Source of the DNA: Rhodococcus sp. W8901
GTDB lineage: Bacteria > Actinomycetota > Actinomycetes > Mycobacteriales > Mycobacteriaceae
Reading direction: 5' to 3'
DNA: 64,000 nt
NCBI RefSeq assembly: GCF_013348805.1
Contig: NZ_CP054690.1
Span: 1,364,001 to 1,428,000 of the forward strand
A model generated the notes under the pieces. It had not been told where the DNA came from, did no database searches, and saw only the letters and a list, made by a program, of their open reading frames with translations. The number at the start of each line of letters is the position of its first letter. The first letter of the stretch is position 1. Both the position numbers and the translations under genes were made by a program. This document shows, in pieces, positions 7,246 through 24,055 of the stretch.

Positions 7246-7270
7246 GTGCCCTCGGCAGGATTCGAACCTG
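7246..7270. other. attL: left attachment core
   Basis: 25 bp identical to 24031-24055. It matches the T-arm and acceptor 3' half of tRNA-Arg (reverse strand) but the rest of a tRNA is absent here. This is therefore the displaced original 3' end of the tRNA, left behind after integration. Confidence 0.85.
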
Positions 7271-7409
7271 TCATGCCTAGACGCGCTCGGAGCGGGTCTA
7301 CCAGCGACAATGTCCTATTTGTGCTGGTGATTGGCGACGCTACACTGTGCCTAAAGTGGACGCAAGCGGACACGCGATAACTCCTATTAGGCAGGAGATA
7401 GGCACGGAC

Positions 7410-8510
7410 ATGGCACGAACCAGACGCGGCTTCGGAGCGCCACGCCAAACATCGTCCGGCCGCTGGCAAGCCCGGTACACCGGCCCTGACGGATTGCCGC
7501 ATAAGGCTCCTCGCACGTTCGAAACGAAGGACGACGCTGTCGCTTGGTTGGCCGGCGAGCGCCGCAAGATCGACCTTGACGCTTGGACGCCGCCGGAACT
7601 CGATGCTGAGCCGAAGGATGTCCTTACGGTCAAGAAGTACGCGGAACGCTGGTACACCGAGACGAAGGGGCGGCACAAGCCGCGAACCCGGCAGCTCAAC
7701 CGTGGCTATCTCGACAACGTCATCCTGCCCGAACTTGGATCGGTGCCACTCGAGAGCTTGACTGTGCAGGATGTTCGGAGGTGGTACGCGAGTCTGGATC
7801 ACTACCCGACGCGCAACGCCAACGCCTTCTCGCTCCTGCGGACCATATTCAACCAGGCCGTTGATGACGAGCTGGTGCCGGCGAACCCGTGCCGCGTCAA
7901 GCGTGCTGCGGTGAAGACGCGGGTCATCGAGCCTGTTGCGTTGACTGCCGCCGAGATCCGCCAGTTGGCCGATTCCATGCCGGCGCAGTGGCGCGCGCTG
8001 GTGTTGGTGGCTGGCTTCGGTGGCCTTCGATGGGGTGAGCTGACGGCGCTACGGCGGTCTGATTTCACGTTGACCGAGTCGGATTGCTCGGTGACGGTCG
8101 CCCGTGCGGCGGTGCGGATGAAGGGTCATTTCGTGGTTGGCCCGCCGAAGTCGAAGGCGGCGATGCGTACGGTGCCATTGCCGTCTGCTCTTCGTCCCAT
8201 CTTGGTTGCGCATATCGCGGAGCACGCTGCCCCTGGTCGTGGTGGCTTGATGTTCCCGGCGGATACTGCGGACCTTCTGCACGACAACACGGTGCGTCCG
8301 AGGTTTAAGCGTGGTGCGGCGGCCCTTGGGCACCCGAAGTTGCGGTTCCACGATCTGCGGCACTCTGCGGCCACGTTGTTTGCGCAGGCTGGTGCAACGT
8401 TGGCGGATCACATGGTGTTGATGGGTCACACGTCGTCGGCGATGTCTGCCCGGTATACGCACAGCACTGCGGCGCGGAACCGGTCACTGGTGGAGGGCAT
8501 CTGGGAGTAG
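7410..8510 (+). CDS. int: Tyrosine-type site-specific integrase
   Basis: 366 residues from the ATG at 7410 (GCAGGAG upstream). An N-terminal AP2-like arm-binding segment (GRWQARYTGPDGLPHKAPRT) precedes a SAM-like core-binding domain. The catalytic domain shows the first Arg in GLRWGELTALRR (about residue 207), HDLRHSAATLFAQAG (about 313) and the nucleophile Tyr in SARYTHS (about 347). It would catalyse recombination between attP and the 3' end of tRNA-Arg. It lies 140 bases from attL and reads inwards. The 186 bases downstream, up to the next start, contain no other gene and probably hold promoter and attP-arm sequence. Confidence 0.95.
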   Translation: MARTRRGFGAPRQTSSGRWQARYTGPDGLPHKAPRTFETKDDAVAWLAGERRKIDLDAWTPPELDAEPKDVLTVKKYAERWYTETKGRHKPRTRQLNRGYLDNVILPELGSVPLESLTVQDVRRWYASLDHYPTRNANAFSLLRTIFNQAVDDELVPANPCRVKRAAVKTRVIEPVALTAAEIRQLADSMPAQWRALVLVAGFGGLRWGELTALRRSDFTLTESDCSVTVARAAVRMKGHFVVGPPKSKAAMRTVPLPSALRPILVAHIAEHAAPGRGGLMFPADTADLLHDNTVRPRFKRGAAALGHPKLRFHDLRHSAATLFAQAGATLADHMVLMGHTSSAMSARYTHSTAARNRSLVEGIWE

Positions 8511-8696
8511 CCGAGAGTGCAGATGGTGAACTCCGATGGCATGTCGGCTTGGATTCTCTGGGATCGCAGAAGACGGGCAGTCAACCTGCGAATATCGGCT
8601 ATGTCGCTCGCATGATCTCGGGTTGTGCGTTTCTGGTGGCCTCTAGGTGTACCGTCTTCAAATTAGTCGAACGGAAGTTCGAAGCCGAGGGGGGCC

Positions 8697-9233
8697 GTGG
8701 TCCTATCAGAAGAAGAAATCCGGAAGCTGCGGGCGCAGGTTGACGCTGCCCACGGTTGTGGGGTCGCTGAGCGGGCAGTCCGGCAGGAAACGGATGCTGT
8801 GATCGCTGCGGCGTACCGGCGCGCTCAAGATGCTGGTGACAGCGCGCGAGTGCGGGCGCTTGACCAGGATCGGAAGACCTGGATGGACGAGTTTCGGGCC
8901 GCGCGCTTCATCGGCCGGAAGCCATCAACGTTGCAGCGTTGGCGTCGGCAGGGGATCGTCCGGGCTGTCAGTAAGCGGGACGAGTTCGGCGTCCGCTGGT
9001 CATACAACCGGCTCGATATTCGAGCGGCCCTACATGTCTCGCACAAGGGTCGGCATGTCAGTCGACAGGCGGGTCCGGGTCGTCCGCAGAAGGTAGAGGC
9101 TCGCGCTGAGACTCTCCGGTTGCTGGAAGAGGATTCGACAGCGAGTAATCGGGCGATCGCTCGGCAGGTCGGAGTGTCACATACGTTTGTGGCTTCCGTG
9201 CGTCGCGAGTGGCAAGAAAACACTGTGTCATGA
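8697..9233 (+). CDS. HTH DNA-binding protein of the phage-derived element
   Basis: 178 residues beginning at GTG 8697 (GAGGGGGG upstream). There are two DNA-binding-looking parts. The middle has RFIGRKPSTLQRWRRQGIV, a MerR/excisionase-like helix-turn-helix. The C-terminus has ASNRAIARQVGVSHTFVASV, a typical winged or homeodomain-like recognition helix pair. It lies directly after the integrase, on the same strand. A role in early transcription or replication control of the element is likely but not proven. Confidence 0.65.
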   Translation: MVLSEEEIRKLRAQVDAAHGCGVAERAVRQETDAVIAAAYRRAQDAGDSARVRALDQDRKTWMDEFRAARFIGRKPSTLQRWRRQGIVRAVSKRDEFGVRWSYNRLDIRAALHVSHKGRHVSRQAGPGRPQKVEARAETLRLLEEDSTASNRAIARQVGVSHTFVASVRREWQENTVS

Positions 9234-9332
9234 CGACTGTCTAAGATGGTTTTTGAAGTCATGGCCAACGTCGGCCAACACTAATTCTGGGAATCACATC
9301 GTGGTTCTGTCATGCCTTGGGGGAGGTGAATT

Positions 9333-9545
9333 GTGGAGTGGCTGAATGAATCCCAAGCCTGCCTGCTTGTGGGTACGTCGGCGCGGTCTCTCCGCCGTTG
9401 GCGTCAGCGGGGCGACCTTCCAGAGTATCGGCAGTGCGTTGGTCGAACGATGTACCGACGTCGCGACGTCGAGGCGTGCGCAGAACTCCAGCGGAGGCGG
9501 TACATGGACCGACCGTTGCAGGGCAGGCCGAAGCTCACCGTCTGA
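9333..9545 (+). CDS. Small HTH protein, excisionase-like
   Basis: 70 residues starting at GTG 9333, preceded by GGGAGGTGA. The sequence LNESQACLLVGTSARSLRRW followed by RQRGDLPEYRQCVGRTMYRRRDV is the MerR/Xis winged-helix pattern: helix, recognition helix, then a wing with Arg. The upstream 99 bases contain two closely spaced GGCCAAC motifs (9262-9281), possible operators. A role as recombination directionality factor or repressor is inferred. Confidence 0.6.
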   Translation: MEWLNESQACLLVGTSARSLRRWRQRGDLPEYRQCVGRTMYRRRDVEACAELQRRRYMDRPLQGRPKLTV

Positions 9546-9625
9546 CCGGTCAACCGAACGCACCATAAAGGCCCCCAGCTTCCACGCTGCCGGGCTGAAT
9601 CAGCATGCCCGAAGGGAAGTTCCAC

Positions 9626-9805
9626 ATGAATGCTCGTCTCGTCACGATCGGAGACGCCGCCGCCTACCTCGGCTGCTCGACGCGAACAGTACGCCGGTAC
9701 ATATCTGCCGGCCGAATCGAGGCCTATCGCGTCGGTAACCGAATGATCCGAGTCGATAGCGCCGAACTTGACCGACTGCTCCGGCCGCTTGCTCACATGG
9801 CCTGA
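9626..9805 (+). CDS. Excisionase-family DNA-binding protein
   Basis: 59 residues from ATG 9626 (GAAGGGA upstream). Clear excisionase (HTH_17) pattern: LVTIGDAAAYLGCSTRTVRR followed by YISAGRIEAYRVGNRMIRVD. This is the better candidate for the Xis of the element, acting with the integrase in excision. It sits in a run of short, closely spaced genes on the plus strand. Confidence 0.7.
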   Translation: MNARLVTIGDAAAYLGCSTRTVRRYISAGRIEAYRVGNRMIRVDSAELDRLLRPLAHMA

Positions 9806-10001: not shown

Positions 10002-11135
10002 GCCACCGGCATAGCTGACTGATTGAGACATGGTGCCGCATAACTCGCGGACGACGAGAAGAGGAACTATTGATTGACGCGAACTGGAATGAGATTCCAG
10101 ACCCCCAGGTGTGGAAGGCCACCGACCTAGAAGGCTCACGCCGAATGGAATGGCTCGCCACCGGGCGGCTCCCATCAGGCGCAGTCACTTACATGCTGGG
10201 TCCCGAGGGGATCGGCAAGAGCCTGTTCCTTGTCTGGCTGACGGCGATCATCACGACCGGGCGGGAGTTCAAGGCGTTCGGCATCCCGCAGCGGCCACCG
10301 AGCAATGTTGTGCTCGTGCTCACCGAGGACGACTGGGCGACCATCGCGCGTCCCCGCCTTGAGACGGCAGGCGCTGACCTGGACTACGTGCGGGTGATCT
10401 GCACGGATAGTGACGGGTCTGGCTCTCCGGAGTTTCCTCGTGACATCGAGTTGGTCGAAGGGGCTGCTGAGGATGCAGCGTTGGTGATTGTCGACGCGTG
10501 GGCGGACACGCTGCCATCGAACCTGTCGGTGAAGGATCCGCAGCAGGCTCGGCAGGCGTTGCATCCGTGGAAGGAAGTGGCGTCGAGGACTGGGGTGTCG
10601 ATCTTGCTGTCGGGGCATACGAATCGTGAGAAGGGCGGCAACGTCCGCAACGCGTACGGCATGACGGCGGAGCTTCGCAAGAAGGCGCGAATGACGCTGC
10701 TCGCACAGCCTGACCCAGATGAGGACGGTGTACTGGTGATCGGGCCGGAGAAGTCGAATGTGACTGCCCCAGTGGTGGCATCCCGATTCCGCATCGAGTC
10801 GGTCCAGGTGTTCGAACCGTCTGACGATGGTGATGGGACGGTGCCGCGAATGGACTGGGCTGGAGACGCCGAGCAGTCAGCGCGCGAACTGTTCGTAGCC
10901 GCTGCCGCTGCCGAGAGTGGGGAAGTCGGCGATGACCGCGACGACATCGACGCGTGGCTGAAGGCGTTCCTGTCCGAGAATCCTGACTGCCGCCAGAAGG
11001 CGAACGACGTGTTCACTGCGGCTGACGCTGCCGGCTATTCGAGGGACAAGGCGAAGCGGGCGAAGGCGCGGCTGAATGTTGATGCAGTCCGGGAGGGCTC
11101 GTGCTGGTACTGGGTTCTGCCGGTGGAAGGGAGCA

Positions 11136-12128
11136 CTAGTTGTACTGCCCATGGACGTTGATCAACCTGCTGAAGGGAACGTTCCTGCCGATGGCGGAGT
11201 GCTGCCGGTGGTGATTGTAGGTGTGCAACCATCCCGGCAGTGCTGCCCGTCTGGCCTGTTCTGACTGGTAGTGGCGGGCGAAGGCCCATTCGGCGGCCAT
11301 GGTGCGGTGGAAGCGTTCGATCTTGCCGTTGGTTTGAGGCCGGTACGGGCGGGTGCGTTTGTGGATGACCGCGAGCTCGGTGCAGGCCTGCTTCCACAGG
11401 TGCGAGCGGTAGCAGCCGCCGTTGTCCGACAGGACCCGTTCGACCGTGACGCCGCGGGCGGCGAACCACGACACTGCCCGTCGTAGCACTCCGACCGCGG
11501 TGGCGGCGGTCTCGTCGTCGTGGATCTCGGCGTAAGCGACGCGGGAATGGTCGTCGATCACGGTGTGCACGAATGCGTGCCCGAGGAGGACATCGCGATG
11601 GCGGCTGCGTTTCGTGCCGGGAGTGGTCTTGCGGTTCTGCCAGCCCTGTGGACGCCCGACGTAGCGCCAGCCACCACCGTTGGGGATGTTGCCGAGTTTC
11701 TTGACGTCGACGTGGATCATCGAACCCGGATACGGGTGTTCGTAGCGGCGGATCACTTCGCCGGTGCGGATGTCGATGTGGGACAGGCGATTGAGTCGGC
11801 AGCGGACCAGGACGGCGTGCACGGTCGAGGCCGGCATGTCCAGCCGCGACGCGATCGCTTGCGGGGACAGTCGGCGTCGCCACCGCAGATCGACGATCTT
11901 GCGTTTGGTCGGTTCCGGAGTGCGATTCGGGCTCCGGTGCGGCCGGCTGGATCGGTCGACCATGCCGGCCTCGCCCATCTCCTGATAGCGGCCCGCCCAT
12001 CTCTTGGCGGTCGGCCAGGACACGTTGAAGTGTTCCGCGGCCGTGCTGATGGGCCAGCCCTCGTCGACGATGCGGCGGGCGAGCAGCAGTCGCCCGCGTG
12101 GGGTCAGTGGTGCGTTAGCGTGGACCAC
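11136..12128 (-). CDS. IS481-family DDE transposase
   Basis: 330 residues from GTG 12128. The N-terminal HTH (RGRLLLARRIVDEGWPIS, then SWPTAKRWAGRYQEMG) and a second HTH are followed by an integrase-core domain with the DDE triad: HVDVKKLG, VLSDNGGCY and NGKIERFHR. Full length for the family and apparently intact. Its TAG stop codon lies within the target-site duplication rather than inside the element, so termination depends on the insertion site. Confidence 0.9.
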   Translation of the reverse strand: MVHANAPLTPRGRLLLARRIVDEGWPISTAAEHFNVSWPTAKRWAGRYQEMGEAGMVDRSSRPHRSPNRTPEPTKRKIVDLRWRRRLSPQAIASRLDMPASTVHAVLVRCRLNRLSHIDIRTGEVIRRYEHPYPGSMIHVDVKKLGNIPNGGGWRYVGRPQGWQNRKTTPGTKRSRHRDVLLGHAFVHTVIDDHSRVAYAEIHDDETAATAVGVLRRAVSWFAARGVTVERVLSDNGGCYRSHLWKQACTELAVIHKRTRPYRPQTNGKIERFHRTMAAEWAFARHYQSEQARRAALPGWLHTYNHHRQHSAIGRNVPFSRLINVHGQYN

Positions 12129-12252
12129 GAAGGTCTCCTGTCGGTGAGTGGGTGTCTAAGCAACTCCACTTCACGACAGGAGACCTTCTTCGTTCAACGA
12201 CCGGCTACAGCGTGTCGTCGCAATCGTTCAACCAACCTGCCTGGGCAGTACA
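11141..12252. mobile_element. IS481-family insertion sequence
   Basis: 1112 bp with perfect terminal repeats TGTACTGCCCA (left) and its complement at the right end. It is flanked by ACTAGT direct repeats at 11135-11140 and 12253-12258. Because ACTAGT is palindromic, the ends could also be placed 1 bp outward with a 4-bp CTAG duplication. It carries one transposase gene on the minus strand. Confidence 0.9.
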
Positions 12253-12603: not shown

Positions 12604-12630
12604 AGGGGCATCCACTGATGGGTGCCCCTT
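12604..12630 (+). terminator. Hairpin after the small Cys protein
   Basis: AGGGGCATCC and GGGTGCCCCT form a stem with a short loop just after the stop at 12592. No long T run follows, so it is either a weak terminator or a phage-type regulatory hairpin. Confidence 0.45.
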
Positions 12631-12648
12631 CGTCATGTCAGGAGCCAG

Positions 12649-13290
12649 ATGCGGATAACCACAACCGCCGAAGAGTTGCGGGTTCTCCTCGCTACCTCTG
12701 AACTATTCGTCAGCCGCGACTCGAAGCACCCCAGCCTCCACGTCGTCATCCTCGAACGCCACAAGGGCAAAGTGCTCGCCGCGTCCACCGACCGATTCCG
12801 GTTCGCACTGACCGCCATCGAGGCCGACTTTGACCACGTGCCCGAGGACTGGCGGATCGCGCTCGATGTCGCGGACATACGCACACTCACGACATCACTG
12901 AAATCGCTAGGCGGTGTACGCCAGCGCCGGCAGATCGAGACAACCATCCACGATCAGGACGGGAAGCTCACAGTCTCGACACCGACAGCAGAGTGGACGT
13001 TCGACCGTGCCGAGAACCAGGTGCCCGACTGGCGTGGCCTATTCAGTGCGACACCATCCGCATCTGGTGGTGTGCCGGCACTCGTGAACCCTGGTCTGCT
13101 CGCCGATGCTGCACGTGCCGCTCGCGGCTCAAAGGACATGGCGCTCATCGAATTGTCTGCTAACTCGACACGCCCAGCTCGAATCACCATCGGTGACCAC
13201 ACCACGATCCTGCTCATGCCCGTTGGCCCAACCAGAGAGAACACGGTCGGCCGGCGTCTACACAAGGAACTCGGAATCGAATGCCAGTGA
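12649..13290 (+). CDS. Sliding-clamp-like protein (DNA polymerase III beta-like)
   Basis: 213 residues from ATG 12649 (CAGGAGC upstream). The pattern resembles two of the three repeats of a bacterial beta clamp: LHVVILERHKGKVLAASTDR (compare the clamp strand with ATDGHRL), LTVSTPTAEWTFDRAENQ, VPDWRGLF, and a C-terminal IGDHTTILLMPVGP like the clamp's final LLMPVR strand. Full clamps are about 370-390 residues, so this is a shortened form. It may recruit host polymerase to the element or mimic the host clamp. It follows the ATPase in what looks like a replication module. Confidence 0.6.
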   Translation: MRITTTAEELRVLLATSELFVSRDSKHPSLHVVILERHKGKVLAASTDRFRFALTAIEADFDHVPEDWRIALDVADIRTLTTSLKSLGGVRQRRQIETTIHDQDGKLTVSTPTAEWTFDRAENQVPDWRGLFSATPSASGGVPALVNPGLLADAARAARGSKDMALIELSANSTRPARITIGDHTTILLMPVGPTRENTVGRRLHKELGIECQ

Positions 13291-13328
13291 CAGTCATACG
13301 AAAACAATCAACGATCAGGGAGGGGACA

Positions 13329-13751
13329 GTGGCGAAGCCACGAGTGACGGACAGCGACGAGCGCACCGCTGAGGAGATGGTGCAGGCGCTACGCGACGGG
13401 GACGACGCGGCGTTCAGGCGTGCACAGGACAGTTGCTTCGAACGCTGGTATGGCGTCGAGGGAACGATGTTCGCTCTCGCATCGAAGCTGTCCAAGTTGG
13501 ACAGTCGGACAGACGAACCAGAGCCGGCCAAGTCCCGACCAGGCACCTACGGGAAGCAGCCCAAGCCAATCACTACAGAGAAAGAGAACGTCACAGTGAC
13601 AGAACAGCAGAAGCAGATAGACAGCCTCGCAGCGAAAGTCGAAGTACTACGAGACGCACTGAAGGAAACCGACAATCGGATCGACCGAATCGTAGGTGCC
13701 CTCGAAGCGTTCGCGGATGTCCTCGAAGAGGATCCGGAGGCACTGGCGTGA
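13329..13751 (+). CDS. Phage-type hypothetical protein with C-terminal coiled coil
   Basis: 140 residues from GTG 13329, selected because AGGGAGGGGAC lies just upstream. An ATG at 13281 that overlaps the clamp gene is an alternative. N-terminal helix EEMVQALRDGDDAAFRRAQ, a Pro/Lys-rich linker, then a heptad-like region (QKQIDSLAAKVEVLRDALKE). The stop overlaps the next start (GTGA), implying coupling. No family recognised. Confidence 0.6.
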   Translation: MAKPRVTDSDERTAEEMVQALRDGDDAAFRRAQDSCFERWYGVEGTMFALASKLSKLDSRTDEPEPAKSRPGTYGKQPKPITTEKENVTVTEQQKQIDSLAAKVEVLRDALKETDNRIDRIVGALEAFADVLEEDPEALA

Positions 13752-14173
13752 GTGAGCAGAACACCGAGGTGGAGCAGGTCGACACCGGACAGCCCAACGA
13801 ACAGATCGTTGAAGACGGCACCGAACCCGACCTCGCCGCGCTCGAACACCAACGACAGATCGCCGACCTCACCGAACAACTCGAAGCCGCGAACCAGGCG
13901 CTCGCCCGCCGTGATGAGCAGATCGAGAAGCACCGGGTGGCCGAACTGAAGAAGCAGATCGGCACCACCCACGAAGTCGACCCAACTCTGCTCCACGGCA
14001 GCACCGTCGAAGAGTTGGAGGCACACGCTATCCAGCTCACAGCATGGCGCAAGACCGTCGAGGCGAAGGTCGTACCCCAACGGCGCGTCCCACTTCGATC
14101 CGGCTACGTCCGGGAGTCGAACTACATGAACGCCCGACAACGCGCCGTGCACGGCGCCCGCAACTCCTTCTAA
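13748..14173 (+). CDS. Scaffold-like coiled-coil phage protein
   Basis: 141 residues from GTG 13748. An acidic N-terminus and a long coiled coil (IADLTEQLEAANQALARRDE) are followed by EVDPTLLHGSTVEELEAHA, a motif I associate with actinophage capsid scaffolding proteins (a '...LLxGxTxEEL...A' segment), and a basic C-terminal tail. No capsid protein gene is adjacent, which is unusual for a scaffold. A role in redirecting helper capsid assembly is a speculative alternative. Confidence 0.45.
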   Translation: MSEQNTEVEQVDTGQPNEQIVEDGTEPDLAALEHQRQIADLTEQLEAANQALARRDEQIEKHRVAELKKQIGTTHEVDPTLLHGSTVEELEAHAIQLTAWRKTVEAKVVPQRRVPLRSGYVRESNYMNARQRAVHGARNSF

Positions 14174-14190: not shown

Positions 14191-14838
14191 ATGACCTCAA
14201 ACATCAACTTCCATCCCATCCCGCAGAGCCAGCAGGCGACAGTGGAAAACTTCAAAGCCAGCATCGGACGCTACGTGGACACCAACCGCGTGGACAGCAT
14301 CAAGGCCTCGCACAAGGCCCAACTCGAAGCCATCCGGAAGGACCCTCGCCTCACCGCAGAAGGCAAGCGGAGCGAGCTAGCCAAGGCGCACGTCGCGTCC
14401 AGAGATCAGATGAACGAACTGCGAACCCAGTTCAAGACTGGACTCGCCGCCGACAAGCTTCGAATCCAACGGCGACTGTTCGGATCCGTCACCGCAGACC
14501 CGACCGACATCGTGTCAGCCCGAGACGCACACGAACGGGCAAGCCGAATCAGCAGCCAGCAGGACGCCATCACGCTCCTCGAGCGGGCACAAATCACAGG
14601 CGACACTGCACTGAGCCGGGCCATCTTCCACCAGGCGGCCCGACACAACTGGAACGAGGCCATCACCACCCACGCAGAGACCAGCCCCGGCGCGGCAGAC
14701 GGGCTCAAGGAGCTACGAGACCTTCCCGAGGGCGACATGACCGAGAACCTCGCCTTCGCACTCCCACTGCCCAACGAGTTCGTCGGCATGACCGCTAAGG
14801 GCGTGGACGCCGAGCTGCGGAAGTACGCGGACGAATGA
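14191..14838 (+). CDS. Helical actinophage structural-module protein of unknown function
   Basis: 215 residues from ATG 14191 (AAAGGACC upstream). Almost entirely predicted helix: KASHKAQLEAIRKDPRLTAE, GKRSELAKAHVASRDQMNEL, RRLFGSVTADPTD, then IFHQAARHNWNEAI and a helical C-terminus. It resembles hypothetical proteins found in head-tail modules of actinophages, but I cannot name a function. It is too short and too helical to be an HK97-type capsid protein. Confidence 0.55.
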   Translation: MTSNINFHPIPQSQQATVENFKASIGRYVDTNRVDSIKASHKAQLEAIRKDPRLTAEGKRSELAKAHVASRDQMNELRTQFKTGLAADKLRIQRRLFGSVTADPTDIVSARDAHERASRISSQQDAITLLERAQITGDTALSRAIFHQAARHNWNEAITTHAETSPGAADGLKELRDLPEGDMTENLAFALPLPNEFVGMTAKGVDAELRKYADE

Positions 14839-14985
14839 TCAGGCCGGCACAAGGCAAGCCAGGCACCAGCACGACGCCGTCCAGCCCTCAGGGGTGGGGG
14901 AGGGGTCTCGACAAGACCGATGGCGGCCCCTCAGGCATTGCTGCCAAAACCTACTTAACCCGAATTTTCCACACCTGGAATCTTG

Positions 14986-15255
14986 ATGGCTGACGGTGGA
15001 TTGGTGGCTGCATCGCTGACGGGAGACCACATGACGGCGCTCAGGGCATTGCGGCGTCGGTTGGCTACGGCGATTGATGAGTGTGGGTCGAAGCGGGATC
15101 TGGCGGCTTTGTCTCGGCAGTACATGCTCGTGATGAAGGCAGTGGATCGACGCTGCGCACCCATACGGATCAATCTGTCGCCTGCCGAGGTGATCGCTGC
15201 ACGGAGGGCTGCACGGTCGGGTGTGAAGGCCGTGAGTCGGGGTGTGAAGCGCTAG
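14986..15255 (+). CDS. Small phage protein, possibly terminase small subunit-like
   Basis: 89 residues from ATG 14986 (a TTG at 14983 is possible). It has SLTGDHMTALRALRRRLATA and DLAALSRQYMLVMKAVD, then a basic tail rich in Ala/Arg. The 'RxRLAxAIDxCxSxRDLAALSRQL' pattern occurs in small terminase-like proteins of actinophages; this assignment is by recollection of pattern, not alignment. The gap 14839-14985 has only a GC-rich segment and no gene. Confidence 0.4.
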   Translation: MADGGLVAASLTGDHMTALRALRRRLATAIDECGSKRDLAALSRQYMLVMKAVDRRCAPIRINLSPAEVIAARRAARSGVKAVSRGVKR

Positions 15256-15340: not shown

Positions 15341-15655
15341 ATGGGGAACAACGATCCGTTCAACGCGGAGATTCAGGCGGCGGCTGGCGAACTGTGGGGA
15401 TCGCTGATCGCGACAGACGGCGACCGGGATTGGGCGCTGATGCTGATCGCTGCTTCGGCAATGAAGTATCAGGAGCGGTTCAACGAGGTGGCGTCGCTGG
15501 CGCTGGTTCTGATGGCGTCTCAGGGTTGGCGCACTGCGCTGAAGATGCTCGCCGAGAAGGGGGTTGATGCGGAAGCGGTGCGGCAGCGGGTTGTGGGTGA
15601 TGTGTTCACGGATCTTCTCGCGGAGGTTGTTGCGGCGCAGCAGCAGTCGGTGTAG
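15341..15655 (+). CDS. Phage hypothetical protein
   Basis: 104 residues from ATG 15341 (GGAG upstream). Helical, with ELWGSLIATDGDRDWALMLI and GWRTALKMLAEKGVDAEAV. No membrane segment strong enough for a holin. It lies just before the tape-measure gene, where tailed phages normally carry tail assembly chaperones with a programmed frameshift. No second overlapping frame is visible here. Confidence 0.5.
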   Translation: MGNNDPFNAEIQAAAGELWGSLIATDGDRDWALMLIAASAMKYQERFNEVASLALVLMASQGWRTALKMLAEKGVDAEAVRQRVVGDVFTDLLAEVVAAQQQSV

Positions 15656-15735: not shown

Positions 15736-18700
15736 ATGGCCGGTGTTGAGTTGGCTACCGCATATGTCAGCCTAGTTGCTGACACTAGTAAGTTGCCGAA
15801 GCAGGTTGGTTCGGCGTTCAAAGATATTCAGACCCAAGCTGGTGTTGCCGGTCAGGGCATGGGGTCGAAGATGGCCGCCGGGCTTGGTAACACGCTGAAG
15901 GCCGGCGCGCTTGGTGTGGCTGCTGCTGCGGGCGCGACCGCCGGCGTGGCATTCGCGAAGGGCTTTCAGCGTCTATCGGCGATCGATGGTGCTCAGGGCA
16001 AGCTCCGTGGTCTGGGGCATGACGCGGGCACCGTGCAGACGATCATGGACAACGCCCTGGCGTCGGTGAAGGGCACGGCGTTCGGGCTCGGCGACGCGGC
16101 CGGTATCGCAGCGGGTTCTGTGGCTGCAGGGATCAAGCCGGGTCAGGATCTTGAGCGGACGCTGAAGCTTGTCGGTGATGCTGCGGCGATCGCAGGCACC
16201 GATCTCGGGTCGATGGGCGCGATTTTCAACAAGGTTGCAGCGTCGAACAAGATTCAGGGCGATGTGATCGCCCAGTTGTCTGATGCCGGTATCCCAGTGA
16301 TTCAGATGCTGGGCAAGGAACTTGGCAAGTCCTCAGAGGAAGTCGTCAAGCTGGCCTCTGACGGCAAGATCAACTTCGAGACGTTCCAGAAGGCGATGGA
16401 GAAGGGGCTCGGCGGCGCTGCCCTGGAGTCCGGCAACACCGTCTCTGGTGCCTTTAAGAACATGAATGCGGCGCTTGGGCGGCTGGGTGCTGAGGCTCTG
16501 AAGCCGACGTTCGCTCGTCTCGGTGGCGGGATCGGTGGGGTCACAAGCGCGATTGACCTTGCAGCGCCGAAGGTATCCGAGTTGGCGAAGGCGCTGGATG
16601 ACAAGGTCTTTGCACAGGGTGTTCCAAAGCTGACCGACGCTTGGAAGGAACTATCAAAGTCCGACCTTGCGCAGGGCTCGCTGCACTCGCTCGTGACTAT
16701 CGGCGGGAACCTCAAAGACACGTTCGAGGGTGTCGTGCCACCCGCGAAGCGGATAGCCGAAGAGCTGGGACGGGCATCGGCTGCTATCGGTGTGAGCGGT
16801 TGGCAGACTCTGCTTGCAACTGCCGAGGCGCTGTCGTCGGTTGCGGCATCGGTCCTCGTGCCGGCGCTTGAGACTGTCGCCGGTTTGATGGAGAGCAACA
16901 CAGGCATCGTGACAGGTCTGGTCGCAGCCTGGCTGGCGTTCAAGACGATTCCTGGCCTGATCAGCCGCACTGGTGCGCCATTGTCGACGTTGAACGGACA
17001 GGCCGTGTCTGTGTCGGGGGCATTGCGGGGAATCGCCACGGCAACAGGTGGTATCACCCAGGTCGCCGGCTATGGAGCGGTTCAGATGGGCCGGTTCGGT
17101 TCGGCGGTGCAGCAGCTCGGCACCCACTCGCCTCTGATCGGCCGGTTGCAGCGAACGTTCATGGATGCTGCTGCGGGCGCGGACAGGTTCGGTCGCATGG
17201 CTGGTACGGCGGCGGTCGCGGGGCAGGGTTTGGCTACTGCCGGCGGTGGTCTGATGTCTGCGCTGGGCGGCCCTTGGGGTGTTGCGATAACGGGTGCGAC
17301 TGTGCTGGTCGGTGGTCTCGCGAGGAAGCACGCGGAAGCGGCTGCAGAGGCACGCGCACAGGAGCAGGCGACCAAGGATCTTGCTACGGCACTGGATCAG
17401 GGTTCTGGTGCGATCACTGCGGCGGTATACGGAGACAAGGCCCGTGAACTCGCCAACAACGGATCCGTCGATCAGGCGGAAAAGCTGGGTATCACCGGTA
17501 AGGAACTCACTGCGGCCAGCCTTAACATGGGCGACTACCTTCCCGCGTTCACAGAGAAGGTCAAGACCGCTGGTGTCGCTGCTGTGGAGGCGTCTCAGTT
17601 TTTCAAGACGAACTCCGACAAGATGTCTGAGCTTGGTCTGACGGCTCAGGTGGTGTCGGGTGCGTTGGCGGGCAATGCCGATGACATCGCACTGGTGAAT
17701 GCGCAGTTGCCGACACTTGGTGCGATGACTGCCGGCGGCGCGGCCACTATGGACGGTCTAGCGCATTCGCTGAAGGGCGGCGCGGAGGAGAACTACAACC
17801 TGGTTCAGTCGGTCGCCAAGTCCAATCAGGCGCTCACCGATGCACAGAAGATCCAGGCTGATTTTCAGTCGGCGGTGCGTGGAACGGCTGCCGAGACGCG
17901 CACCATGTCGGGTGATGTGGCCGAGCTTGGATTGCAGGTCCGCGAGGTACCCGATGCGAAGTCGGTCGTTGTCGACATTCCGACCGAGGATCAGAGGAAT
18001 CGGCTGCTCGGGCTCGGGATGACTATCACGGACATTCCTGGCACGAAGACGGTCACAGTGACGGCTCCGACTGAGGAAGCGGCAGCCGGGTTGACGAACT
18101 TCGTCAATCAGCAGCGGACGATCACGGTCAAGGTTCGTGCGGAGGCTGCAGCGGATGCGTACGCGGCGAATCTTGCGGCTGACATCGCGAATGGTGGCTA
18201 TGTCCACTATGCGGATGGCGGTATCCAGAACCTGCCTGGGCAGGCGAAGATCCAGCCCGGTAGCGGTGCAGGGCTGGTGCAGTGGGCTGAGGGTGAAACC
18301 GGTGGCGAGGCGTTCATTCCGCTAGCACAGTCGAAGCGGGGACGCTCCACGTCGATCCTCGCGGACGTTGCGGCACGGTTCGGGTATGGGCTGACTGCGT
18401 TCGCTGAGGGTGGAATCAACGGCATCCAAGCAGCACTCAATGCTGGGCGCTCGAACAATGGTGTGAAGTACCTGTGGGGTGGAACCGGTCCGAACGGTTG
18501 GGACTGCTCAGGTTGGGTTGGATGGCTACAGCAGATCGCTATGGGCATCGTCGGATCAACGAAACGCCTGTACACCACCTATTCGCTGCTTGATGGTTCG
18601 TTGGCTGGTTTGCAGCGCGGACTCGGTCCTGCTGGGACTCAGTTCCAGGTGGGCGTGTCGCAGGAGCACATGGCGGCAACCGTTGGTGGGCAGCCTGCCG

Positions 18701-19653
18701 AGTCTGGTGGCTCACACGGCGATTCCCGCATTGGGGCTCCGGCAGTTGGGGCGACAGATAGCCAGTTCACGAACTGGTTTCATCTGCCCAACAGCATGAT
18801 TGCTGGTGGTGTCGCTAACTCGTTCACTCCAGGCGATCGGAGGGCCGTTGAGTGGACCGAGGACGATGACCTTTACCTCGAAGAGGCGGGCATCAATGTC
18901 CGGCAGGAGCAAGATCGCCGCAACGAAGTCCAGGAGAAGCTGAACAAGGGCGAAGCCACGCAGGCGGAACTCGACAAGGCCGATCTGGACGTGAAGAAGG
19001 CTCAGAAGAAGGTTCTGGATCTTCAGAAGCAGAAGGAAGCGGCAGGTGCTGGCAAGTATGTGGCTCCTGAGGCTCCGGGTATCGCGAAGGCATACACCGA
19101 ACGGGAGATGGAACGTCTCGACGCCCAACTCTCGGTTGATGAGGCGAACGAGCGGCGTAACGAGGTGTACGACGACCCGGAGGCATCGGAGCGTGACCGT
19201 CTGCGGGCTGACATGGACCTGGTTCGCGCCCAGAACTCGCTTGCTGAGGCGATCAAGGGCACGAAGGACGGCAAGGATTATTCGGCGCGGGGGATCGCGA
19301 AGACGTTCCTTGATCGGGCGTCGGATGCTGCGCTGGATGGTGTGTTCGGGCAGATCCCGTTCGGTGTCGGTGACTCTCGTTGGGTGACCACGGACTGGAA
19401 CTCGCTGATCCCTGAGGGCGATTGGACTCAGGAGCAGGTTGATTCGCAGCTTGGTGTGACGCCGGGTCAGGGTGACTGGATGTCGGCACTGTCCAAGAAT
19501 CTGGAGGGTGCGCCGGCTGAGGTTGGGGACCTGTTGAAGCGGGTCAAGGTGTTTGACAATGGTGGCTGGTTGGAGCCTGGTGAGTTGGGTATCAATTTGT
19601 CGTCGCGTCCGGAGCCGATCTTCAATACCCGGGACTGCTGCAAGATCGGGTGA
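15736..19653 (+). CDS. Tail tape-measure protein with embedded peptidase-like domain, 3' end cut by IS
   Basis: 1305 residues as it stands, from ATG 15736. N-terminal tape-measure domain (YVSLVADTSKLPKQVGSAFK, SAIDGAQGKLRGLGHDAGT), then hydrophobic and Gly/Ala-rich helical regions that could form membrane-active segments. Near residues 905-1010 is an NlpC/P60-like domain: YLWGGTGPNGWDCSGW with Cys924 and EHMAATVGG with His978. A coiled-coil follows. Such a domain would cut peptidoglycan during DNA entry. The last residues (RDCCKIG) are encoded by the IS3-type element; the native end continues beyond it at 20913. Restored length is about 1360 residues, which at 0.15 nm per residue predicts a tail near 200 nm. 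Confidence 0.9.
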   Translation: MAGVELATAYVSLVADTSKLPKQVGSAFKDIQTQAGVAGQGMGSKMAAGLGNTLKAGALGVAAAAGATAGVAFAKGFQRLSAIDGAQGKLRGLGHDAGTVQTIMDNALASVKGTAFGLGDAAGIAAGSVAAGIKPGQDLERTLKLVGDAAAIAGTDLGSMGAIFNKVAASNKIQGDVIAQLSDAGIPVIQMLGKELGKSSEEVVKLASDGKINFETFQKAMEKGLGGAALESGNTVSGAFKNMNAALGRLGAEALKPTFARLGGGIGGVTSAIDLAAPKVSELAKALDDKVFAQGVPKLTDAWKELSKSDLAQGSLHSLVTIGGNLKDTFEGVVPPAKRIAEELGRASAAIGVSGWQTLLATAEALSSVAASVLVPALETVAGLMESNTGIVTGLVAAWLAFKTIPGLISRTGAPLSTLNGQAVSVSGALRGIATATGGITQVAGYGAVQMGRFGSAVQQLGTHSPLIGRLQRTFMDAAAGADRFGRMAGTAAVAGQGLATAGGGLMSALGGPWGVAITGATVLVGGLARKHAEAAAEARAQEQATKDLATALDQGSGAITAAVYGDKARELANNGSVDQAEKLGITGKELTAASLNMGDYLPAFTEKVKTAGVAAVEASQFFKTNSDKMSELGLTAQVVSGALAGNADDIALVNAQLPTLGAMTAGGAATMDGLAHSLKGGAEENYNLVQSVAKSNQALTDAQKIQADFQSAVRGTAAETRTMSGDVAELGLQVREVPDAKSVVVDIPTEDQRNRLLGLGMTITDIPGTKTVTVTAPTEEAAAGLTNFVNQQRTITVKVRAEAAADAYAANLAADIANGGYVHYADGGIQNLPGQAKIQPGSGAGLVQWAEGETGGEAFIPLAQSKRGRSTSILADVAARFGYGLTAFAEGGINGIQAALNAGRSNNGVKYLWGGTGPNGWDCSGWVGWLQQIAMGIVGSTKRLYTTYSLLDGSLAGLQRGLGPAGTQFQVGVSQEHMAATVGGQPAESGGSHGDSRIGAPAVGATDSQFTNWFHLPNSMIAGGVANSFTPGDRRAVEWTEDDDLYLEEAGINVRQEQDRRNEVQEKLNKGEATQAELDKADLDVKKAQKKVLDLQKQKEAAGAGKYVAPEAPGIAKAYTEREMERLDAQLSVDEANERRNEVYDDPEASERDRLRADMDLVRAQNSLAEAIKGTKDGKDYSARGIAKTFLDRASDAALDGVFGQIPFGVGDSRWVTTDWNSLIPEGDWTQEQVDSQLGVTPGQGDWMSALSKNLEGAPAEVGDLLKRVKVFDNGGWLEPGELGINLSSRPEPIFNTRDCCKIG

Positions 19654-19662
19654 CAGGTTCGG

Positions 19663-20550
19663 TCACGCAGCCTGAGTGGCTGGTGTGGTCATGATGGTCT
19701 CGTATTCGACGGGGGTCAATTTGCCGAGCCTGGCTTGGCGTCGGCGGCGGTGGTAGGTCCGTTCGATCCAGGTGACGATCGCGATCCGAAGGTCGTTACG
19801 GGTCGCCCATGGCTGGCGGTCGAGGACGTTCTTCTGCAGCAGGGCGAAGAACGATTCCATCGCGGCGTTGTCGCCGCAGGCGCCGACTCGGCCCATCGAT
19901 CCGACCATCGCGTGCCGGCCGAGGGCGTGGACGAATTTCCGTGAACGGAACTGCGATCCGCGGTCGCTGTGAACCACGCAGCCGGCCACCGGATCACCGG
20001 CCGCGGCCCGGCGGGCGACGGCCGAGTCGAGGGCGTCGACCGCGAGTCGGGCCTTCATCTTCGAGTCGATGGAGTAGCCGACGATTCGGTTCGAGTGCAC
20101 GTCCTTGATCGCGCACAGGTAGAGCTTGCCCTCGCCGGTGTGATGCTCGGTGATATCTGTGAGCCACAACCGATTCCGCTCATCGGCGGTGAAGTTCCGG
20201 GCGACGAGATCGGCGTGGACCGGCGGACCGGAACGGACGTTTTTGGTGCCGCGCTTCTTGCCGAACGAGCTCCACCACTTGTTAGCCGAACAGATCCGCC
20301 ACCCGGTGCGCGGTGCCATCGTCTGGCCTGCGTCGGCGGCTTCGTCGACGAGGAACCGGTAACCGAATTCGGGGTCGTCGCGGTGAGCGTCGAACAGTGC
20401 GTTGGCCCTGTACGCCTCGTCGAGCTCGGCAGCGGTCACCGGTGCGGCCAGCCACCGGTAGTAAGGCTGACGTGCGATTCTGAGGACCCTGCACGTCACC
20501 GCGACGGGAATGCCGTCGGCGGCCAGTTCACGGACGAGCGGGTAGATCAT
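19663..20550 (-). CDS. IS3-family transposase OrfB
   Basis: 295 residues. The integrase core holds the DDE triad in WLTDITEH, HSDRGSQF and AAMESFFALLQKN. The N-terminal HTH-like part (VAVTCRVLRIARQPYYRWL) is typical. The start overlaps the orfA stop (ATGA), with an A run just before it that could also allow frameshifting to an OrfAB fusion. Appears intact. Confidence 0.92.
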   Translation of the reverse strand: MIYPLVRELAADGIPVAVTCRVLRIARQPYYRWLAAPVTAAELDEAYRANALFDAHRDDPEFGYRFLVDEAADAGQTMAPRTGWRICSANKWWSSFGKKRGTKNVRSGPPVHADLVARNFTADERNRLWLTDITEHHTGEGKLYLCAIKDVHSNRIVGYSIDSKMKARLAVDALDSAVARRAAAGDPVAGCVVHSDRGSQFRSRKFVHALGRHAMVGSMGRVGACGDNAAMESFFALLQKNVLDRQPWATRNDLRIAIVTWIERTYHRRRRQARLGKLTPVEYETIMTTPATQAA

Positions 20551-20840
20551 TTTCCCGGCAGGTTCGCCTGCGACAGATACGCCGCGGCCCGGCGCAGGAC
20601 CTCGTTCTCCTGTTCGAGCAGCCGGATCCGTTTCCGAGCCTCGCGCAGCTCGGCGTTCTCACTTGTGGTGGTTCCTGGCTTGACGCCGTCCTCGACGTCG
20701 GCGGCCTTCATCCAGTTCGCCAGGCAGGACTCGCTGATCCCGAAATCAGCGGCGATCCGCTTCAGCTGCTGGCCCGGTTCGCGATTGCGGGCCACGCGGA
20801 CGATGTCGTCACGGAACTCCTTGGGATACGGCTTCGGCAC
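20547..20840 (-). CDS. IS3-family OrfA (HTH and leucine zipper)
   Basis: 97 residues from GTG 20840, giving the usual PKPYPKEFRDDIVRVARNRE beginning with GGAAGG upstream. Starts at 20849 and 20876 are possible but add non-conserved residues. HTH: IAADFGISESCLANWMKAAD. C-terminal leucine zipper: ELREARKRIRLLEQENEVLR. It would bind the IS ends and partner OrfB. Confidence 0.9.
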   Translation of the reverse strand: MPKPYPKEFRDDIVRVARNREPGQQLKRIAADFGISESCLANWMKAADVEDGVKPGTTTSENAELREARKRIRLLEQENEVLRRAAAYLSQANLPGK

Positions 20841-20908
20841 AGGGCACATCCTTCCAGCAGTGCCTTCCGGCACCACAGATCAGATGTCACCTATTCGTGC
20901 AGCAGTCC

Positions 20909-21083
20909 CCCGGATCAGTTGCGGCAGTTCGCTGGCGGGTTGAACCCGGCGCAGCAGCAGCGGCAGACAGTCGATGCTTCTGTCCACTTCCACGCCCCGG
21001 TGACGACCGCCGACATCAATGAGTTCAGGGACACGATTCGCGCCGAACAGGACTGGCGCACGCGCGGCCTGGTGAGGAGGTGA
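20909..21083 (+). pseudogene. Severed C-terminal end of the tape-measure gene
   Basis: After the IS the frame from 20913 (DQLRQFAGG, then helical sequence ending RTRGLVRR) runs 56 codons to TGA at 21083. PEPIFNT before the IS and DQLRQF after it match the usual tape-measure ending. In-frame joining needs four C bases at the junction, which fits a 3-bp CCC duplication; a 4-bp CCCG duplication would leave a one-base shift. Confidence 0.7.
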
Positions 21084-21085
21084 GC

Positions 21086-21339: not shown

Positions 21340-21346
21340 CGTGTCG

Positions 21347-21631
21347 ATGGACTGGATTGGCGTATCTGACGAGCTGCTGGATGAGGTCGAGCAGCTAGTG
21401 AATGCTGCCGGCCGCTCTGATGCCGGCCGGACGATCGTCGACAACCTTCTGGGGGAGGGTGAGTTTGATGCGGCTTTCGAGTCGCTGGTTGCGCAGGCGG
21501 CATCTGTGGGTGTTCGGTTCCCAGCTGGGCTGCTCGACCGGATCGAGGCTGAGGTTGTCGATGCAGACGAGGAAGCATTCACTGGCGAGTTTGATGATGA
21601 TCTGCGGAAGCTGCGGCTGATCGCTGAGTGA
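21347..21631 (+). CDS. Small acidic hypothetical protein
   Basis: 94 residues from ATG 21347 (GTG 21341 also possible). Strongly acidic and helical: VSDELLDEVEQLVNAAGRSD, AGRTIVDNLLGEGEFDAAFE, LLDRIEAEVVDADEEAF. The acidity and size are reminiscent of small immunity or antitoxin-type proteins, but no toxin is adjacent and no family is certain. It has its own consensus promoter and so may be expressed in the lysogen. Confidence 0.55.
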   Translation: MDWIGVSDELLDEVEQLVNAAGRSDAGRTIVDNLLGEGEFDAAFESLVAQAASVGVRFPAGLLDRIEAEVVDADEEAFTGEFDDDLRKLRLIAE

Positions 21632-21670: not shown

Positions 21671-21677
21671 ATCCATC

Positions 21678-21965: not shown

Positions 21966-21971
21966 CCTGCT

Positions 21972-22406: not shown

Positions 22407-22460
22407 GCGGATAGGTGTATCAAACTGGACAGACACGGCGGTTTGGTATGCCGGAATGCG

Positions 22461-22497
22461 AAGTGCCCCACCTGGCCTTAGGCTGGGTGGGGCACTT
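22461..22497. terminator. Hairpin between HTH and lipoprotein genes
   Basis: AAGTGCCCCACC pairs with GGTGGGGCACTT, loop of about 13 bases, with TTTT on the plus strand. It lies downstream of 22514-22732 and upstream of the lipoprotein gene, so the two reverse-strand genes are probably separate transcripts. Confidence 0.55.
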
Positions 22498-22513
22498 TTC
22501 GTCGTTTACAGGC

Positions 22514-22732
22514 TCACCATGGGTCTCCGACCGCCCGGGTGTTGTTCTTCTCGTATGTCTGTACCCCTTCCTCTGAGAACCTCACTGATTCGCCGATCCG
22601 AATACTCGCGATCTCGCCGGCTTGAGCCAGGCGGTAGACGGTCCTCTGCGAGATCTGCCAGCGTTCGGCTACTTCGGATGCCTTCAGGAGTGTGTATCGA
22701 CTGGGTGTCTTGTCTCTGGGGTGGTTTGCCAC
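22514..22732 (-). CDS. Excisionase/MerR-type HTH regulator
   Basis: 72 residues from GTG 22732. Pattern: TLLKASEVAERWQISQRTVY, then RLAQAGEIASIRIGESVRFS, the standard HTH_17 winged helix. A 9-bp inverted repeat overlaps the start region, suggesting autoregulation. A candidate for the lysogeny regulator of the element, though most phage repressors are larger. The 468 bases upstream (22733-23200) show no further gene, only hairpins. Confidence 0.65.
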   Translation of the reverse strand: MANHPRDKTPSRYTLLKASEVAERWQISQRTVYRLAQAGEIASIRIGESVRFSEEGVQTYEKNNTRAVGDPW

Positions 22733-22761
22733 GTCACAGATTGTCGCGTGGCTGACGTGGC
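22728..22761. promoter_or_regulatory. Inverted-repeat operator candidate
   Basis: GCCACGTCA (22728-22736) and TGACGTGGC (22753-22761) are perfectly complementary, 16 bases apart. The left arm overlaps the start codon of the HTH gene on the minus strand. This spacing suits two turns of helix bound by a dimer. Confidence 0.5.
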
Positions 22762-23119
22762 GTCGTGATGCGGGGGTTCCATTGCGGGACAGAAGGTCCC
22801 AGCTAGTGGATGAAGTTTGCCTACTACACCAGTTGAGGAGTGGTGGTTGGCAAGAGTTGGGCGGTAGGTCACCCACACGCGCTGCGGACACCTGGCGGTG
22901 GCAGGAGCTGTAACCCCTCCCCAAGATTTCCCACGAACCATGCCCCGATATCGCGTCTCGGCCAACACAAGTAGCCCGACCACGGATGTGGACGAGCTTG
23001 TGTCAGACCCTCACGGCGTCAGGCCTGACCCACTGTGAGAGCGCCTGTGCCGGTTCACAGGATTAGGAACACCGGGCTGTCTCGGTTTGCGTCGGAGACG
23101 GCAGGAGCGACGTGCTGCA

Positions 23120-23147
23120 GGGTTTTTCCCGGAGGTGGGAAGAACCC
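23120..23147 (-). terminator. Hairpin downstream of 23201-23728
   Basis: GGGTTTTTCCC and GGGAAGAACCC form an 11-bp stem with one G-T pair and a 6-base loop, about 55 bases past the stop of the minus-strand gene. Confidence 0.5.
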
Positions 23148-23200
23148 GGCTGGCAAGGCGCGGGCACCTACGAGAGATGCCCGGCCCAACCAGTCGGGAA

Positions 23201-23728
23201 CTAAGCAGCAGCCCTAACAGACGTTGCCGCCAACCACTTCGAATGCATCACCCGAAGACTCTCGATCAACTCCGGAATATCCTGCGGACGTACAGCAGTC
23301 GACTGATCGTTGCGAAACCACACCGACCACTGCGTGTAGTCGACAGCCCCGTCCTCACCGTGCGTTGTCAGCAGATCCAGTTCGACAGTGGTGGGGGAAT
23401 CACCCTCGCCCGGATGCTGAAAGGTGCCGGTGCCGAAGTTCTCGAAGTGTCCATCGCAGCCATGGACGAAGAGGTCGAACTCGATGCTGGTTCCCGTGTG
23501 CTTGTACGTGGCGCGGATTCCGGTATCGGTCTGTTCGAGTTCGCATGGTCCGAAGGCGTGCCCGATCAGCTCGAGCTTGTTGTGGACAGTGCGGGTCATG
23601 AGTGAATGGGTGCGGTAGTTGCCCAGGTAGTCGTGGGCTTTCCCTGCTTTCATGATGACGCCGTAGCCGCTGCAGGGGTGTCCGTGGAGGTTGGGGTGGT
23701 TAGCGATGAGTCGGTCGATGATGTTCAC
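23201..23728 (-). CDS. Hypothetical protein, lysogeny cargo candidate
   Basis: 175 residues from GTG 23728, a start fixed by its GTGA overlap with the stop of the small upstream gene. The N-terminus reads VNIIDRLIANHPNLHGHPCS. The body contains YKHTGTSIEFDLFVHGCDGH and a C-terminal helix ending in Ala residues. It looks soluble, with no DNA-binding motif. I do not recognise it. Its position next to attR and coupling to a membrane peptide suggest a cargo function such as defence or exclusion, as inference. Confidence 0.55.
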   Translation of the reverse strand: MNIIDRLIANHPNLHGHPCSGYGVIMKAGKAHDYLGNYRTHSLMTRTVHNKLELIGHAFGPCELEQTDTGIRATYKHTGTSIEFDLFVHGCDGHFENFGTGTFQHPGEGDSPTTVELDLLTTHGEDGAVDYTQWSVWFRNDQSTAVRPQDIPELIESLRVMHSKWLAATSVRAAA

Positions 23729-23871
23729 GCTGCACCGCCGATGAGCCACAGGCCGATGCGGAGGGCTTCGATGGTGGCGAAGTAGCCGGTGGTGAGGATG
23801 GCGACGACTGCGGCGATGTCACGCAGGGTCGTCTTGTCGGTGGTGCTGGATACACTTCTTGCACGGTTCAT
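23725..23871 (-). CDS. 48-residue membrane peptide coupled to 23201-23728
   Basis: Starts at ATG 23871 and ends with a TGA that overlaps the GTG of the next gene. A polar N-terminus (MNRARSVSSTTDKTTLRDI) is followed by one hydrophobic segment (VVAILTTGYFATIEALRIGL) able to span a membrane. The coupled overlap and sensible composition support a real gene. It may anchor or regulate the downstream protein. Confidence 0.55.
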   Translation of the reverse strand: MNRARSVSSTTDKTTLRDIAAVVAILTTGYFATIEALRIGLWLIGGAA

Positions 23872-23903
23872 GCGGAGTCTCATTCCGTGTGTGCCGGAGG
23901 CCC

Positions 23904-23938
23904 CGGATGAGAGTTGGCGCTCTCACTGGGGCCGTTCT
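23904..23938 (+). terminator. Strong hairpin near attR
   Basis: GGCCCCGGATGAGAG and CTCTCACTGGGGCC pair around TTGGCG, followed by GTTCTATTT. It would stop transcripts running out of the element towards the tRNA gene, or insulate the minus-strand promoter of 23871. Confidence 0.55.
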
Positions 23939-24030
23939 ATTTGGCGACACGAACCAAGCCATCTGGCACGAATTAGGCAAGAAGCCTGACTGTGAGAGGC
24001 GAAAAGCAGCCCTGAGCTGCTGAAACGTGA

Positions 24031-24055
24031 GTGCCCTCGGCAGGATTCGAACCTG
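24031..24055. other. attR: right attachment core
   Basis: The second 25-bp copy, identical to 7246-7270 and forming the 3' end of the intact tRNA-Arg gene. Integration therefore reconstituted the tRNA at this end. Confidence 0.85.

Follow-up and report, generated by a model that had tools for sequence, protein, structure and literature searches.

The 64,000-nucleotide window analysed here (Rhodococcus sp. W8901, contig NZ_CP054690.1, positions 1,364,001 to 1,428,000) contains a 16.8-kb island at window positions 7246-24055 that combines a phage tape measure protein (TMP) gene with the gene of a 215-residue protein, p215. From sequence comparison we consider it likely that the island belongs to a family of actinobacterial phage satellites that has apparently not been described before and that uses the mechanism proposed below. 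The chances appear evenly balanced for the broader proposal that a class-wide p215 family repeatedly acquires from its helpers a virion gene, that of TMP more often than any other, so that helper tails assemble on a satellite ruler, with TMP as the helper-specificity part and p215 as the conserved assembly-steering part. Integration at a tRNA gene, defined boundaries, an own replication ATPase and recurrence in other genomes are seen directly in the genes.

The island is bounded by 25 identical bp at 7246-7270, on the integrase side, and at 24031-24055, where the repeat forms the last 25 bases (3' end) of a tRNA-Arg(CCT) gene on the minus strand (24104-24031), and the bounds given by an earlier sequence-only reading of this DNA coincide exactly with this attachment repeat. 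The GC content is 0.621 within the island and 0.684 in the remaining window. When the flanks were compared with 14 genomes, four congeners (G003, G004, G005, and G009) had the two matches at a spacing of only about 0.7-1.3 kb, which together with the 25-bp repeat places the island at an attachment site, as expected of a phage satellite. In G002 the flank matches lie about 70 kb apart, and in G008 the left flank is represented by a 100-base piece only, beside the tRNA side. In G007 a prophage occupies the same tRNA-Arg, with about 46 kb separating the two copies of the 25 bp (L104-L106, G007:C2:451039-497415), and it matches TerL (the large terminase), portal, capsid, TMP and lysin. The remaining genomes gave no usable pair of flank matches.

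The sequence-only reading had claimed that large terminase, portal, capsid protease, capsid, major tail, tail fibre and lysis genes are absent, and this holds in our scans: none of them was found when the 20 open reading frames (ORFs) of the island were compared with Pfam and PHROGs, or by phmmer with the structural proteins of six actinophages, which inside the island detected only TMP and a weak match like that of a small terminase (TerS). Deleted remnants of terminase, portal or capsid genes were looked for with the same result. In whole-genome searches the source genome had no match to the Pfam portal family PF05133 or the capsid family PF05065, and phrog_2, which we take to be the large-terminase family, reached at best 1.7e-4, far outside the island. 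Controls set the limits of these negatives. In an Arthrobacter prophage (L054) phmmer recovers TerL, portal, MuF, scaffold, decoration, capsid, connector and TMP and misses the major tail gene; in the same-genus prophages L102 and L103 TerL and portal go unseen by the six-phage search, which does pick up capsid, TMP and minor tails. Phrog_2 detects a terminase at the start of both and fails on two other TerL genes, those of the G007 prophage and of locus L097, and PF05133 and PF05065 recover the G007 portal and capsid and have no match in G004 or G005. No single search type detects every virion gene class, and within the limits of these controls the island lacks the genes for a complete virion.

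The gene of p215 (14191-14838, plus strand) is without Pfam or PHROG match. It was matched in 19 of 401 genomes of the family (8 of 31 genera, own genome included), and its profile in 15 of 394 genomes of the class (8 of 138 genera, own genome and five known ones included). The family search gave 24 places besides the window, 20 of which, from 17 genomes, were examined (three G028 fragments and one weak G184 match were omitted); the class search added nine new genomes, all examined, giving 30 p215 loci with the window. By contrast with this spread, searches of 50,697 phage records (three queries), 72,556 plasmid records (one query) and viral contigs (three pattern-based queries) gave no match to p215, and a profile search did not see it in the same-genus stretches L102-L106, which had been candidate satellites and turned out to be prophages. 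An assignment of p215 to a known family was also tried, and Pfam, PHROGs and PDB sequences offered nothing useful: one of the 21 members reaches a major-head profile at 3.6e-4 and two reach families without a name, while the best PDB match (0.0024), to a stretch of TRIM45, was taken as chance. From its sequence distribution, p215 looks like the mark of a satellite-like family across Actinomycetes, and because the p215 plan recurs in this way the island does not look like a one-off reduced prophage. An ordinary prophage that lost its head genes and most tail genes by deletion, leaving TMP as a remnant, is thus an unlikely source of the island, given both the genera that share the plan and the lack of p215 in phage records.

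The 30 loci differ in the virion gene that they hold. TMP is found at 18 (window, L034, L036-L039, L043, L044, L048, L050-L053, L093, L096, L098, L099, and L101), and at 16 of these as a single uninterrupted ORF of 692-1880 aa, which speaks against a remnant of prophage deletion. The two exceptions are the window, where the gene is cut by an insertion sequence (IS), and L053 of genome G003, where TMP is spread over three frames in an assembly that is 79% complete. L035 (G173) retains only a C-terminal TMP remnant, as a decaying prophage might. Four loci carry another virion gene: a MuF-type protease/ADP-ribosyltransferase gene instead of TMP (L040:6146-7603), a phage minor tail protein (L046:10831-12615; phrog_110, 3.4e-185), a neck protein (L095), and TerS plus TerL (L097:6901-8885). 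No virion gene was found at the remaining seven (L041, L042, L045, L047, L049, L094, and L100; L049 has a weak TerS-like match) by six-phage phmmer, seven-phage after adding LilSpotty, and PHROGs on one L042, two L094 and two L100 ORFs, and virion genes may have been missed there. Some TMP loci hold more: L034 has an additional tail-chaperone-family gene (2.4e-25), L048 (G278) an additional minor tail protein and an endolysin-family protein, and the TMPs of L044 and L048 include a transglycosylase family. A further same-genus locus, L107, combines a 1525-aa TMP with an integrase and an AAA-type gene; p215 was not found in it, and it is possibly a second TMP-bearing satellite type.

The closest relative is the island of G003, in the same genus, where the order is hth1/hth2, o156, p215, o104, TMP, d96 with no head module in between; e182 is also common to both islands. 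A close relative with a complete head module between the same genes, which would have pointed to a reduced prophage, was sought and none was found. G003 keeps the order including TMP, but homologues of the clamp, scaffold, TerS and AAA genes were not found there and its TMP is the one in three frames. Parts of one gene (cluster 57, presumably ComM/YifB-like) flank both ends of the G003 island, which seems to lie inside that gene, and beside the L053 end lies a 389-aa protein of an integrase cluster, of the large serine type by inference.

Boundary repeats were sought in 17 islands, ten of which gave none at the threshold used. Besides the window, seven TMP islands have repeats of 21-48 bp, 14.2-19.5 kb apart from start to start (G099 14.2, G201 15.2, G135 16.1, G085 15.5, G227 19.5, G278 15.8, and G546 14.7 kb); the least certain are those of G085 and G278, at no recognised tRNA, and the G546 stretch holds a second integrase-family gene. 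Among the genes of at least 150 aa in these seven bounded islands TerL, portal and capsid were not recognised; the replication-size proteins scanned belong mostly to primase or helicase families, and the others are integrases, TMP, p215, accessory proteins or proteins of no recognised family. The pooled PHROG scan of 107 proteins, with 25 of 90 matching families listed, does not by itself exclude head genes. Whole genomes were searched with phrog_2 (17 + 13 genomes) and with PF05133 and PF05065 (the 17 genomes holding the 18 TMP loci, plus three controls). Every match of the latter two was outside the islands, and in island-bearing genomes the strong matches of all three profiles were 60 kb or more away from the islands, or else on different contigs.

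The TMPs of these islands appear to have more than one origin. In a tree of 22 rows, with only six phages and two prophages and with two long branches, the window and G003 TMPs form a supported pair (98/93) nested inside phage and prophage TMPs, that of L038 groups with Gordonia phages (100/100), which it matches at 61% over its full length, and seven satellite TMPs including L107 form a 100/100 group, while a single clade for all 14 satellite TMPs was rejected (p-AU 0.00028). Since the satellite TMPs lie among those of local phages and not in a clade of their own, these sequences fit repeated recruitment from phages, from several phage families. The satellite label is nevertheless more clustered than in shuffles (4 changes vs 6.7 on average; 3 of 500 shuffles had so few), which may mean that certain TMP lineages persist within satellites. 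Phage sampling is thin, however: the L037 TMP, which belongs to the group of seven, is equally close to L036 and to Gordonia phage Cashline, the latter matched at 40.8% over 93%. At 200 bits and 300 aligned residues the TMPs of L044/L048, L093, and L098 are unlinked to the main group; the G278 TMP aligns with that of Mycobacterium phage LilSpotty in two parts, at 84% identity over 661 residues and at 60% over 564, and the L098 TMP matches Microbacterium phage Footloose at 62% over 65% of its length.

In the window the TMP gene has been interrupted. The part before the IS (15736-19626, plus strand, 1297 codons) is clearly a TMP gene by phrog_10780 (5.8e-165, computed for ORF 15736-19650) and Pfam TMP_3 (5.3e-19). 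The sequence-only reading had therefore identified it correctly, but not as regards its size: the 1305-aa ORF (15736-19653) is no intact full-size TMP, as it runs out inside an IS3-family element (19631-20909, minus strand; family name from plasmid annotation) that has a 98.98% identical copy elsewhere in the genome and removes at least the last 54 codons. A 54-codon ORF beyond it (20919-21083, plus strand) looks like the native C-terminal end, putatively cut off, and by itself has no family match in Pfam or PHROGs. At residue 923 lies an NlpC/P60-like region with a DCSG motif (PF00877, partial match at 0.0049, below cut-off). With 1297 codons before and at least 54 after the IS, against 1606 residues in the best-scoring phage relative, ReT1v-2, a shorter tail would be predicted. 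Since the gene is cut, this island copy is probably impaired or immobile.

How far, then, do these results bear on the origin of the island? A prophage reduced by deletion would account for its phage-type TerS-like, scaffold-like and TMP genes, which together with two IS insertions suggest decay under way, for the nesting of the window TMP among phage TMPs, and for the combination of TMP, minor tail and endolysin genes in the G278 island. Against it, a minor-tail gene follows TMP in all six phages and none was recognised there in the window; head-gene remnants, or relatives with an intact module between the same genes, did not emerge either. With no remnants found and a recurring plan, the satellite reading fits better than a reduced prophage, as the sequence-only reading had preferred, although the TMP gene is cut and the strategy is not without precedent.

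Another explanation, to which we give a small probability, is that the satellite TMP acts by interference, poisoning or slowing the tail assembly of the helper without becoming part of satellite particles. The phage-inducible chromosomal island-like elements (PLEs) of Vibrio cholerae do show that tail assembly is a satellite target (PMC12987554), and TMPs that track local phages fit a decoy as well as a part. However, many of the TMPs are about as long as those of related phages, some retain entry-enzyme regions that a decoy does not need (partial NlpC/P60-like here, transglycosylase in L044 and L048), and the PLE TMP is reported to sit in the virion (PMC12987554). A non-mobile island that keeps its phage genes in the service of the host, for instance as a component of a tailocin or bacteriocin, would agree with the lack of packaging evidence. 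This is very improbable, since the island carries an integrase, excisionase-like and replication genes as well as attachment repeats, and the searches recognised no tail tube gene in it (in the control L054 the major tail gene, too, went unseen by the six-phage search).

For a phage satellite of this kind we infer helper dependence, TerS redirection and a chimeric tail from the gene content. During growth of a helper siphophage the island would excise and replicate, and the large terminase of the helper, guided by the TerS-like protein of the satellite, would package it into a head built of helper capsid protein. By analogy with the Vibrio PLEs, the satellite would then supply its TMP for a chimeric tail with helper tube, tip and fibres on the satellite ruler, and this TMP would set the tail length and bring its own cell-wall-entry region. 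P215 would be the hallmark satellite protein, and its steering of helper assembly is a guess. In the source genome, the TMP gene has since been cut by the IS.

Several points weigh against this proposal. Besides the cut TMP gene, no helper prophage was recognised in the source genome by phrog_2, PF05133 or PF05065, and no tail assembly chaperone in the window. The misses in the controls (L102 and L103; G007 and L097) mean that divergent head genes could have escaped detection. TMP is not obligatory, since at seven of the 30 loci no virion gene was found and five hold only another one or a TMP remnant, and the G278 island with its minor tail and endolysin genes fits a reduced prophage too.

From the integrase onward the gene order is three helix-turn-helix (HTH) genes, a RepA-like AAA ATPase, a clamp-like protein, o156, a scaffold-like protein, p215, a TerS-like protein, o104 and TMP, followed by small genes, an excisionase-like HTH gene and e182; the integrase, HTH, AAA ATPase, clamp-like, scaffold-like and TerS-like calls of the sequence-only reading are all supported by Pfam or PHROGs matches. 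All of these genes up to TMP are on the plus strand. The tyrosine integrase (7347-8510; PF00589 2.9e-17, phrog_1 8.2e-66) precedes hth1 (8697-9233; HTH DNA-binding protein, phrog_20602 9.7e-9), hth2 (9333-9545; HTH_17, PF12728 3.4e-9) and hth3 (9605-9805; HTH_17, excisionase/regulator-like, PF12728 1.7e-13, phrog_66 7.9e-10). The ORF of the AAA ATPase (10070-11161; AAA_25, PF13481 1.8e-19, phrog_10729 1.5e-17) stops within an IS481-family insertion (11141-12252, minus strand; transposase ORF 12128-11136) with a 6-bp target duplication, ACTAGT, and two further 100% identical genome copies, its family name again coming from plasmid annotation; the sequence-only reading had overlooked this element. 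The sliding-clamp-like protein (12622-13290) matches phrog_947 at 9.6e-7 and PF02767 at 4.8e-4, below cut-off, and its best PHROG is phrog_12598, labelled RusA-like (1.6e-21). Next come the small protein o156 (13281-13751; homologous to a G003-island protein at 42% over 74 residues), the head-scaffold-like protein (13748-14173; phrog_1793 1.2e-9 and three further scaffold families below 1e-5) and, beyond p215, the TerS-like protein (14983-15255; phrog_1459 2.4e-7). The small gene o104 (15341-15655), directly upstream of TMP, is 53% identical in the G003 island and from its position possibly a tail chaperone; in PHROGs it matched no chaperone family, and its best match, to the portal family phrog_776 (0.011), was too weak for a portal remnant, which the conservation in G003 also argues against. 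After TMP lie d96 (21341-21631, plus strand; 78% identical over 92 residues to a G003-island gene), an HTH excisionase-like protein (22514-22924, minus strand; PF12728 1e-10) and e182 (23201-23749, minus strand; 33% identical to a G003-island gene, 3e-30).

Just beyond the island, the gene at 24423-25262 (plus strand) matches a Corynebacterium phage lysin (1.7e-14); judging by its sequence, also matched within the genus at the same site, it is probably a host peptidase. It is followed by a 510-aa ORF (25345-26877, minus strand) that by eye we take to be an IS30-type transposase. Farther along the window GC skew is raised at 43-44 kb (0.282) and GC is lower at 44-50 kb (0.62-0.66), and 43001-50000 is perhaps another island.

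Classical phage-inducible chromosomal islands (PICIs) and Staphylococcus aureus pathogenicity islands (SaPIs) carry an integrase, an HTH/excisionase gene, a replication gene, TerS and a possible capsid-redirecting scaffold, and are not known to carry TerL or capsid. The island has this set of integrase, regulator/excisionase, replication gene and TerS, at the level of function and not of homology, with the scaffold-like protein (phrog_1793) as the only candidate for capsid-size redirection, and it differs from them by TMP and p215. Capsid-forming PICIs (cf-PICIs) are likewise integrated satellites, some with a putative tmp gene, but according to PMC10690885 they encode their own head and packaging genes, whereas the island shows only a TerS-like and a scaffold-like gene, and TerL, portal, protease and capsid of its own were not found with PHROGs, phmmer, PF05133 or PF05065. 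The actinobacterial Streptomyces satellites MulchRoom and MiniFlayer are described as encoding TerL, portal and capsid, neither genome with a recognised primase, and the main text of that paper does not contain 'tape' (PMC10690885). Candidate Mycobacterium PICIs are likewise satellite-type elements integrated in actinobacterial genomes, some of them at tRNA genes (PMC10654092); they were defined there by an integrase and a major capsid gene, so that islands like this one would go uncounted, and 'tape measure' does not occur in its main text. P215 could serve as a search key for satellites overlooked by capsid-requiring searches. Among the matches listed in the open-licence PMC literature, with bioRxiv outside this scope, there was no description of TMP-bearing actinobacterial satellites.

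The strategy itself, which the sequence-only reading had called unusual, is no longer unprecedented, since Vibrio PLEs already build chimeric tails in which their own TMP replaces that of the helper (Mathur et al., Nature 2026, PMC12987554, March 2026). Until then, well characterised satellites were thought to take helper tails. The PLE TMP is reported to shorten tails as expected, and tmp deletion to lower transduction by 96-99.9%; PLEs are called there the first satellites known to manipulate tail assembly this way, and the legend of Extended Data Fig. 10 lists a putative tmp for PLE-like elements and for some of the cf-PICIs (PMC12987554). Like a PLE, which relies on a phage virion, the island is an integrated satellite element encoding its own TMP (phrog_10780), though IS-cut in this copy, and the likeness is one of gene kind. 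PLEs as described there encode a tail chaperone (PLE11 also a baseplate hub) and use the contractile phage ICP1, whereas the present islands have actinobacterial hosts, TMPs resembling those of Gordonia, Rhodococcus and Mycobacterium phages, and no recognised chaperone in the window, with one chaperone-family gene in L034. For Gordonia terrae and Mycobacterium smegmatis, laboratory strains are on record as hosts of phages whose TMPs are related, which offers a tractable test bed. In conclusion, to judge by its genes this looks like a second, widespread TMP-bearing satellite family after PLEs, so far without known relation to them, and its apparently repeated uptake of TMP suggests that replacement of the tail ruler may be a recurrent satellite strategy.

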